Below, one piece after another: positions 13,006 to 20,192 of a stretch of 40,669 bases of DNA. The number at the start of each line of letters is the position of its first letter. Within the stretch, counting starts at the first letter, position 1. This stretch comes from Nitrospirota bacterium (lineage in GTDB: Bacteria > Nitrospirota > JACRHL01), in NCBI GenBank assembly GCA_016212085.1, contig JACRHL010000004.1:1-40669 (forward strand). Direction: 5' to 3'. A program made the translations under genes and the position numbers. The notes below the pieces were generated by a model. It saw nothing but the letters and a program-made list of their open reading frames with translations. It was not told the DNA's origin and did not search any database.

Positions 13006-13053
13006 AAAAAAAGGGGCCGCCCCGCCCCGGTCCGGGCGGAACGGCCCCCTTGA
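13006..13053 (-). terminator. Rho-independent terminator, probably two-way
   Basis: A long GC stem pairs the GGGGCCG side near 13048 with CGGCCCC near 13018; on the minus strand it is followed by a run of seven to eight T. The plus strand also has a T-run partner (A-run at 13006 and TTGAAAAAA at the other side), so it could act both ways. It would end transcription of the 68-residue protein gene. Confidence 0.8.
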
Positions 13054-16098: not shown

Positions 16099-16518
16099 AT
16101 GCAGCCCCGCCTCACCCTCGTCACCCTGCCCGTGGACGACCTGGAGCGCGCCGTGCGCTTCTATCGCGATGGCCTGGGCCTGCCCACCGAGGGCATCATG
16201 GGCGCCGAGTTCGAGCACGGCGCCGTGGCCTTCTTCGAGCTTCAGGGGGGCATCAAACTGGGGCTGTGGCCGCGCAAGAGCCTGGAACACGACTCGGGCC
16301 GCGCCGTGGCCAAGGGCGACATGAGCAGCATCGTCCTGGCCCACAACGGCACCAGCCGCGACGAGGTGGACCGGGTGATGGCCGAGGCCAAGGCCGCCGG
16401 CGCCACCATCGTCAAGCCCGCCCGGAACACCTTCTGGGGCGGCTACGGCGGCTACTTTGCCGACCCGGACGGCCACCTGTGGGAGGTGGCCTACAACCCG
16501 GCGTGGGACGTGGCCTGA
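16099..16518 (+). CDS. VOC-superfamily (glyoxalase/dioxygenase fold) protein
   Basis: 139 residues, a single VOC domain. Paired beta-alpha-beta-beta-beta motifs are visible: VDDLERAVRFYRDGLGLP at the N terminus and GGYFADPDGHLWEVAYNP at the C terminus, the latter with the His and Glu that usually take part in metal binding. Substrate is unknown: the family includes glyoxalases, resistance proteins and dioxygenases. GGAGGAG precedes the ATG. It starts 44 bp after lon and may be read through from it. Confidence 0.88.
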   Translation: MQPRLTLVTLPVDDLERAVRFYRDGLGLPTEGIMGAEFEHGAVAFFELQGGIKLGLWPRKSLEHDSGRAVAKGDMSSIVLAHNGTSRDEVDRVMAEAKAAGATIVKPARNTFWGGYGGYFADPDGHLWEVAYNPAWDVA

Positions 16519-16562
16519 ATACGCGCCACACTGCGCCGACATTGCCGGGGCTGTAGGCAAGC

Positions 16563-16606
16563 GCCCCGATCCCCGCCCCGATCCACCCCCGCCCCGATCC
16601 ACCCCC
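16563..16606. repeat. Short direct repeats, 16-bp unit
   Basis: Two perfect copies of a 16-bp unit GCCCCGATCCACCCCC (16575-16590, 16591-16606), preceded by a 12-bp partial copy. They lie between the VOC gene and the transporter promoter. No function is evident. Confidence 0.8.
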
Positions 16607-16653
16607 GCACGGCGGCCCGCACGTCCCCGACGGACGGCCCCCGCCTTCCCGCC

Positions 16654-16682
16654 TTGACGCCTTTTTCCGTCCCGGTTACAAT
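16654..16682 (+). promoter_or_regulatory. Strong sigma-70-type promoter of the SLC13 transporter
   Basis: TTGACG at 16654-16659 and TACAAT at 16677-16682, spaced 17 bp, each one base off consensus. Transcription would begin near 16690, giving a leader of about 125 nt. Confidence 0.7.
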
Positions 16683-16696
16683 TTTTCTACATATTT

Positions 16697-16785
16697 CCGA
16701 TCGAAAAAGTAGGGATACTTTCCCGGTCGGCCGTTGCAACCCGCCCGTGCCGATTCCGTTGGCGGCGCGGGGCGGCGGTTTTTTT
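16697..16785 (+). promoter_or_regulatory. Candidate transcription-attenuator leader upstream of the SLC13 transporter
   Basis: Two consecutive hairpins lie between promoter and ATG. Hairpin 1 pairs 16697-16711 with 16716-16730 (13 of 15 pairs, one of them G-T, loop GGGA). Hairpin 2 pairs 16741-16752 with 16763-16775 (12 pairs, one bulge) and is followed at 16779-16785 by seven T, the form of an intrinsic terminator, 28 bases before the ATG. A competing pairing is possible: 16724-16731 (3' arm of hairpin 1) with 16749-16758 (5' arm of hairpin 2). This gives the mutually exclusive design of an attenuator or riboswitch. No known riboswitch class was recognised. Confidence 0.5.
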
Positions 16786-16813
16786 CCACCATCTGGCATG
16801 GGCGGGGCACGGC

Positions 16814-18589
16814 ATGGGCGCACAACTGGGCTGGCAGGCGTGGGTGGCGGGGGGCGTGGTGGCCGGGGTGTTCGCCGTGCTGATGGCCACCCGCGTGCCC
16901 CCCTACCTGGCCATGGTGGGCGGCATGGCCCTGCTGCTGGTGACCGGCGTGGTCTCCCCCAGGGCCGCCCTGGCGGGCTTCGCCAACGAGGGGGTGATCA
17001 CCGTGGCCGTGCTGTTCGTGGTGGCGGCGGGGCTGCGCCAGGCGGGGGTGCTGGCGTGGCTCATGGGCCGGGTGCTGGGCCGCCCGCGCTCCGTGCGGGC
17101 CGCGCAGGCGCGCATGGCCGTGCCGGTGATGGCCGCCAGCGCCTTCCTCAACAACACCCCGCTGGTGGCCATGCTGCTGCCGGTGGTGCAGGACTGGGCC
17201 CGGCGCGTGGGCATCGCCCCCTCGCGGCTGCTGTTGCCCCTGAGCTACGCGGCCATCCTGGGCGGCCTCACCACCCTCATCGGCACCAGCACCAACCTGA
17301 TGGTCAACGGCCTGTGGATCGCCGAGGGGCACGCATCCCTGTCCCTGTTCACCATCACCCCGGTGGGGCTGGCGGCGGCGCTGGCGGGGATGGCCTTCAT
17401 GCTGGCCGCCGGGCGGCGCCTGCTGCCCGACCGCCAGGTGGATGCCTCGGTGTTCGACAACCCGCGCGAATACACGGTGGAGATGCGCGTGTCCGGGCGC
17501 GGCGCCGCCGGGCGCACGGTGGCCGATGTGGGCCTGGGCCACCTGCCGGGCATGGTGCTCACCCACGTGCGCCGCCCCGGCCGGGTATGGTCGGAGGCGC
17601 AGGGCGACATGCGCCTGGGCGAGGGCGACGAGCTGCGTTTTGCCGGGCTGGTGAACGGCGTGGCCGACCTGCTGCGCCTGCCGGGGCTGGCCCCCGCCAC
17701 CCGCCAGGTGAACCGGTTGGACGACCCGCGCGCGGAGCGGGTGTTCGCCGAGGCGGTGGTGTCGCGCACCAGCCCGCTGGTGGGGCAGTCGGCGCGCGAG
17801 GGGCGCTTCCGCACCCGCTACGGGGCGGTGGTGCTGGCGGTGGCCCGGGGCGGCGAGCGCCTCACCCAGCCGGTGGCCGACGTGGTGCTGCAACCGGGCG
17901 ACGCCATCTTTCTGGAGACGGGCCCGCACTTCGTGGCCCAGCACCAGAACTGCTCCGACTTCTGCCTGGTGAGCGCCCTGGACAGCGACGGCCCCGCCAC
18001 CCGCGAGCGCGCCCCGGTGGCGCTGGCGATCGTGGTGGGCATGGTGGTGGCGGCGGGCACGGGGCTGCTCACCATGTTGCAGGCGGCCTTCGTGGCGGCG
18101 TTTTTGATGCTGGCCACCCGCGTCTGCTCGGAAGCCACCGCGCGCCGCGCCATCGACCTGCCGCTGATCCTTTCCATCGGCGCCGCCCTGGGGCTGGGGC
18201 AGGCGCTGGACCAGACCGGGCTGGCCGGGGCGTTCGCCGGCTCGCTGCTGGCCGTGGGCGGCGACCACCCGTGGGCGGCGCTGGCGGCGGTGTACGCGAC
18301 CACCATGATCATCACCGAGATCGTCACCAACAACGCGGCGGCGGCGGTGGCCTTCCCCATCGCCATGGCCACCGCCCACCGCCTGGGGGTGGACCCCATG
18401 CCCTTCGCCGTGGCGGTGATGATGGCCGCCTCCGCCAGCTTCGCCACCCCCATCGGCTACCAGACCAACCTCATGGTCTACGGCGCCGGCGGCTACCGGG
18501 TGAGCGATTTCTTGCGGATCGGCATCCCCATGAACATCGTGGTGGGGGTGGTCACCGTGCTGCTGCTGCCGTGGGTGTTTCCGTTCTAG
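16814..18589 (+). CDS. SLC13/DASS-family permease with central TrkA-C (RCK-C) domains
   Basis: 591 residues, about 12 membrane segments split by a soluble region at about residues 205-365 that looks like two TrkA-C domains (FRTRYGAVVLAVARGGERL and LQPGDAIFLETGP). Family motifs occur in both membrane halves: SAFLNNTPLVAMLLP and GTSTNLMVNG in the first, EIVTNNAAAAVAFPIAM and IGYQTNLMVYG in the second, matching the Ser-Asn-Thr substrate and sodium hairpins. The family imports anions such as sulfate or dicarboxylates; the substrate cannot be read here. It has its own promoter and structured leader and appears monocistronic. Confidence 0.9.
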   Translation: MGAQLGWQAWVAGGVVAGVFAVLMATRVPPYLAMVGGMALLLVTGVVSPRAALAGFANEGVITVAVLFVVAAGLRQAGVLAWLMGRVLGRPRSVRAAQARMAVPVMAASAFLNNTPLVAMLLPVVQDWARRVGIAPSRLLLPLSYAAILGGLTTLIGTSTNLMVNGLWIAEGHASLSLFTITPVGLAAALAGMAFMLAAGRRLLPDRQVDASVFDNPREYTVEMRVSGRGAAGRTVADVGLGHLPGMVLTHVRRPGRVWSEAQGDMRLGEGDELRFAGLVNGVADLLRLPGLAPATRQVNRLDDPRAERVFAEAVVSRTSPLVGQSAREGRFRTRYGAVVLAVARGGERLTQPVADVVLQPGDAIFLETGPHFVAQHQNCSDFCLVSALDSDGPATRERAPVALAIVVGMVVAAGTGLLTMLQAAFVAAFLMLATRVCSEATARRAIDLPLILSIGAALGLGQALDQTGLAGAFAGSLLAVGGDHPWAALAAVYATTMIITEIVTNNAAAAVAFPIAMATAHRLGVDPMPFAVAVMMAASASFATPIGYQTNLMVYGAGGYRVSDFLRIGIPMNIVVGVVTVLLLPWVFPF

Positions 18590-20146: not shown

Positions 20147-20192
20147 AAAAAAACGCCCGCCGCGCCACCCCAACCCGGTGGCGCGGCGGGCG
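20147..20192 (-). terminator. Rho-independent terminator of motAB
   Basis: A perfect stem (16 bp or more) at 20154-20192, arms GCCCGCCGCGCCACC and complement with loop CCAACCC region, followed on the minus strand by seven T (20147-20153). It lies 14 bp after the motB stop. Confidence 0.92.

Follow-up and report, generated by a model that had tools for sequence, protein, structure and literature searches.

A probable promoter-proximal intrinsic terminator in the predicted leader of an SLC13/TrkA-C transporter gene from a Nitrospirota bacterium

INTRODUCTION

Why would a structure expected to end transcription be located between the promoter of a bacterial gene and its start codon? This question is raised by the region preceding an SLC13/CitMHS transporter gene in a Nitrospirota bacterium, which we examined within a contiguous stretch of 40,669 nucleotides (hereafter 'the window'). 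A preliminary description of the locus, made from its sequence, had proposed that two hairpins with mutually exclusive folds might form a transcription attenuator or a new riboswitch whose ligand might relate to the transported anion. Here we evaluate the anatomy of this leader (Table 1), its distribution, and the regulatory and non-regulatory functions that it could serve.

Table 1. Positions of the leader features and adjacent genes within the window.
Feature	Position	Strand	Basis
Glyoxalase-family gene, upstream; stop codon 261 nt before the T-run	16099-16518	+	Gene call, homology
Sigma70-type promoter, TTGACG-17-TACAAT	16654-16682	+	Motif search of the window
Predicted transcription start (A), 7 nt past the -10 box	16689	+	Inferred from -10 position
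Hairpin 1: 7 bp, AA/CC internal loop, 6 bp, GGGA loop; -15.0 kcal/mol	16697-16730	+	Folding
Possible transient antiterminator pairing, 16725-16731 with 16749-16755	16725-16755	+	Folding
Intrinsic terminator: hairpin 2 (16731-16778) and T7 (16779-16785)	16731-16785	+	Folding, T7 context in window and genome
Region before the ATG with weak Shine-Dalgarno-like GGGCGGGG, complementary to terminator 5' arm 16740-16752	16794-16806	+	Folding, shuffles
SLC13/CitMHS transporter gene with two TrkA-C stretches, 591 aa	16814-18589	+	Homology

RESULTS

A rare promoter match and a probable intrinsic terminator precede the transporter gene

Direct reading of the sequence locates near-consensus promoter elements at 16654-16659 (TTGACG) and 16677-16682 (TACAAT), separated by a spacer of 17 nucleotides. 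The preliminary description had likewise called this promoter near-consensus. The pattern TTGACN-(15-18)-TANNAT matches only once in the entire 40.7 kb, with 0.04 matches expected and 4 of 100 shuffled sequences yielding one. A promoter motif search of the interval from 15.5 to 17.5 kb returned this site as its sole match, with 0.1 expected. Inspection of the sequence between the terminator and the transporter ATG found no second fitting promoter. The interval between the glyoxalase stop codon and the promoter carries short GC-rich tandem repeats (16562-16652), including a 16-nt unit, CCCCGCCCCGATCCAC, present in 2.4 copies, plus neighbouring repeats.

Hairpin 1 has exactly the extent originally described and is modestly more stable than shuffled versions of its sequence (z = -2.3; 4 of 200). 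The terminator-like element that was said to follow it is also present with its seven T residues, and its stem begins at position 16731 rather than at 16741. Considered alone, the stem of hairpin 2 is unexceptional for a sequence of 71% GC (z = -0.67 versus shuffles), and the leader as a whole folds better than its shuffled counterparts (z = -2.5 for 104 nt and -2.6 for 125 nt).

The context of the T-run is more informative. Only three T7 runs exist on both strands of the window, and each resides directly 3' of a stable GC-rich hairpin (-23 to -41 kcal/mol). Throughout the genome, S4-N-T7 sites number 106, compared with 58 for the reversed control, and the tail GCGGCGGTTTTTTTC recurs exactly, 3' of a nitroreductase-like gene. 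When 30 sampled genome sites were considered together with those of the window, well-formed T7 hairpins were mostly found 38 to 73 nt past a stop codon (12 sites); these genome-wide statistics derive from pattern searches and sampled loci, and the distances use stop codons from a simple GC3-based gene call. Because T7 runs with GC-rich hairpins recur in this manner as gene-end terminators, hairpin 2 and its T7 tail represent the usual terminator type of this organism. The element is therefore convincing as a real terminator, persuasive by its context rather than by its stability.

Its placement is atypical, however: the T-run lies 261 nt past the preceding stop codon, with a promoter in between, and the next start codon follows after only 28 nt. 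Given that a terminator of the usual form is found so far from the gene behind it and so near the one ahead, it is likely to be promoter-proximal and to yield a leader RNA of approximately 97 nt.

Two further intrinsic terminators with T7 tails, both very strong (-36 and -40 kcal/mol), were observed on the minus strand at 13006-13048 and 20147-20192. The latter is 3' of motB, and the former probably follows a small gene, also on the minus strand, similar to a zinc-finger protein that adjoins lon in another genome (G001).

The transporter gene has a patchy distribution

Homologues of the transporter align from residues 1 to 8, and thus the ATG at 16814 is a good start codon. The closest orthologue among those compared is 59% identical and comes from a metagenome-assembled genome labelled Lambdaproteobacteria, whereas in genomes of the same family no homologue exceeds about 35% identity. 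The nearest relatives of this protein reside in Lambdaproteobacteria-labelled, Nannocystineae, Omnitrophota, Planctomycete and cyanobacterial genomes, and this patchy pattern suggests that the gene may have been acquired by horizontal transfer. All three family genomes carry lon, and the glyoxalase gene was not found beside it in any of them, so there is no syntenic leader there. As far as genomes were compared, the gene block appears specific to the present lineage.

The leader is an orphan among the sequences compared

Covariance models from Rfam 15 produced no match to the leader at gathering thresholds, and permissive settings gave only a chance match outside the leader (E = 6.7), in agreement with the earlier statement that no known riboswitch could be recognized. 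Comparison of the leader DNA with 60 relatives gave short chance matches only. Among these was a 27-nt match recurring in many genomes, which we dismissed as chance; in the window's own genome it falls on a tRNA-Val(GAC) gene.

No similar leader was detected by BLAST or covariance model in the regions upstream of 80 orthologues. Two well-formed terminators found before orthologues (L028 and L050) end the preceding gene, approximately 50 nt past its stop codon, and a third candidate (L041) is a weak hairpin with T5. A covariance model built from the single leader sequence likewise identified no similar leader in the relatives or in 296 genomes of the phylum. Its second match in the present genome is merely a similar terminator 3' of the nitroreductase-like gene, and matches elsewhere (G250 and others) look like chance. 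Leader matches were also absent from plasmid records and, by exact 22-mer search, from viral contigs. A literature search on riboswitches associated with SLC13 or sulfate transporters uncovered nothing relevant. The leader is thus the single known sequence of its kind among the genomes compared. Its lack of conservation in orthologues, which the preliminary description had named as evidence against its proposal, holds for distant orthologues which, at 59% identity at best, are too distant to be decisive.

As a separate observation, an interspersed repeat whose length is about 120 nt or more is present in at least five copies in the genome, with the form GG-CTGTT-ACACAAAGGCAA...GCGCTGCAACGC-GGGTTGCGAAAAAATGGGC (G000:C3:54539-54627, C6:20548-20636 on the minus strand, C15:323742, C16:162431 and C18:47414; L175, L182). 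In both of the copies that were read, the repeat directly adjoins a stop codon.

Alternative pairings are possible within the leader

The pairing once proposed to make the two folds exclusive can indeed be drawn, with five Watson-Crick and two G-U pairs. However, hairpins 1 and 2 are compatible and coexist side by side in the minimum-energy fold (-44.6 kcal/mol), whereas the best fold forced to hold the alternative reaches only -29.8 kcal/mol, making it 14.8 kcal/mol less stable. When folding of the nascent transcript was modelled in 4-nt steps, the alternative was the minimum-energy structure only with the 3' end around 16757-16761; at 16765, hairpin 1 had returned and the terminator was forming. 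A kinetic switch is imaginable on the basis of such modelling but is not indicated by it.

A second possibility, missed by the preliminary description, is a 13-bp helix (including G-U pairs) between the terminator 5' arm and the segment preceding the ATG. Equally long helices arise in 1.8-3.7% of shuffled sequences. In the 125-nt leader, the fold containing this helix is predicted to be better than the terminator fold (-58.5 versus -50.2 kcal/mol, a margin of about 8 kcal/mol), but of three longer contexts, two lowered its probability to 0.5-0.6. These predictions are no more than suggestive.

DISCUSSION

Attenuation in the broad sense and its alternatives

We favour transcription attenuation, broadly defined, or leaky premature termination, and assign this explanation about an even chance; transporter mRNA would then be made by read-through. 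RNA polymerase would begin at the near-consensus promoter and generate the leader (about 16689-16785) as its first product. This RNA is expected to fold into hairpin 1 and then into the intrinsic terminator, where most transcripts would probably stop. Transporter mRNA would therefore arise solely via read-through of a promoter-proximal terminator that is off by default. If the system is regulated, the 3' arm of hairpin 1 could pair with the terminator 5' arm to create an antiterminator whenever hairpin 1 is blocked, for example by a protein, a ligand, a small RNA or altered elongation, such that hairpin 1 would serve as an anti-antiterminator. In the full-length mRNA, the terminator 5' arm may pair with the pre-ATG region and lower translation further.

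The order of promoter, intrinsic terminator and gene that characterizes attenuators is evident in the sequence. Attenuation is also favoured by the rarity of the promoter, the unusual position of the terminator, the stability of the leader relative to shuffles, and the transient appearance of the alternative pairing as the minimum-energy fold. Weighing against it, our searches found neither a leader homologue nor a comparable leader terminator before an orthologue, and the alternative fold is weak and short-lived. A leader peptide of the type used by trp-type attenuators is missing as well: there is no ATG from 16689 to the terminator, and only GTG and TTG codons that lack a plausible Shine-Dalgarno sequence.

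The same architecture, a dedicated promoter followed by a terminator, also satisfies the usual description of a small RNA gene. The preliminary argument that constitutive termination at this position would be senseless, and that regulation is consequently implied, was too strong, since such a gene or a leaky terminator could also account for the element. As the main rival, although a somewhat unlikely one, we consider a trans-acting RNA, either stand-alone with a length of about 97 nt or a small RNA derived from the 5'UTR; transporter expression would then depend on read-through or on a different transcript. It holds this position because E. coli is known to produce 5'UTR-derived RNAs of such size (approximately 60-90 nt) with functions of their own (PMC7815308). 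Nevertheless, no homologue of such an RNA was found in the relatives searched, the transporter would be left without its own promoter, and the terminator is positioned just 28 nt from the ATG.

If the promoter-like site has little activity or arose by chance, the terminator might mainly end transcripts of lon and the glyoxalase gene. These genes are upstream on the same strand, and no other terminator was seen between 16518 and 16731. This explanation is improbable, given a distance from the stop codon that is unlike the 38-73 nt typical of the genome, the rarity of the promoter match, and a transporter gene that would again have no promoter. We attach still lower probability to the idea that hairpin 1 matters mainly as a palindrome in the DNA, with AAAGTA-N4-TACTTT serving as a repressor or activator site that overlaps the early transcribed region. 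The perfect inverted repeat AAAGTAGGGATACTTT is indeed located just 3' of the predicted start and occurs once in the genome. However, the repeat continues outward through the AA/CC mismatch and a pair that can form, as U-G, only in RNA, and the genome offers no second copy even at two mismatches, which argues against a regulon. Allowing two mismatches across 61 genomes gave counts similar to those of the reversed control, and at the single matching locus in a family member (L138) the leader was absent, so that match was taken as chance.

The preliminary proposal stands as far as anatomy is concerned: the sequence gives good support to an intrinsic terminator lying close to the promoter within the 5' leader of the transporter gene. 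A two-state switch or new riboswitch lacks such support, because the hairpins coexist, the exclusive fold is far weaker, no known riboswitch is recognized, hairpin 1 is simple, and no conservation was found. We also regard as very doubtful an RNA switch of a type not yet described, with hairpin 1 as the sensor of a metabolite or ion connected to the SLC13/TrkA-C transporter and with control exerted over termination as well as over pairing of the ribosome-binding region. Least probable of all is a ligand-binding riboswitch that senses the transported anion itself. Its location before a transporter and the formal possibility of an alternative fold are in its favour, but the 34-nt stem-loop of hairpin 1 is simple and lacks the complex architecture of an aptamer, Rfam yields no match, and no homologous leader was found among the genomes compared.

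Significance and comparison with known systems

Judged from sequence, this element is most likely a conventional regulatory leader whose sequence is an orphan among those compared. If termination before the gene is real, it would add a single orphan example of an anion transporter controlled by premature termination, from a GC-rich lineage of bacteria of which few relatives have been sequenced. At present it is a good local regulatory candidate rather than a new RNA class, and it will gain importance only if covarying homologues or a ligand emerge.

The leader resembles the general class of 5'UTR attenuators that rely on intrinsic terminators in its promoter, leader hairpin, terminator shortly before the start codon, and formally possible antiterminator. 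It departs from that class in having no leader peptide, known regulator or ligand, in its one-sided energetics, and in the absence of detected conservation. The RNA antiterminators (RATs) recognized by proteins of the LicT/SacY type are hairpins of about 30 nt that adjoin intrinsic terminators, and hairpin 1 is of about that size and is similarly placed. Unlike a RAT, hairpin 1 shares no nucleotides with the terminator stem in the minimum-energy fold, and its AA/CC internal loop is symmetric. The small RNAs IspZ and ChiZ of E. coli derive from 5'UTRs (PMC7815308), whereas the present leader is a candidate known by its sequence. What the leader is predicted to share with IspZ and ChiZ (PMC7815308) is the production of a short RNA, about 60-100 nt in length, by premature termination upstream of a gene.
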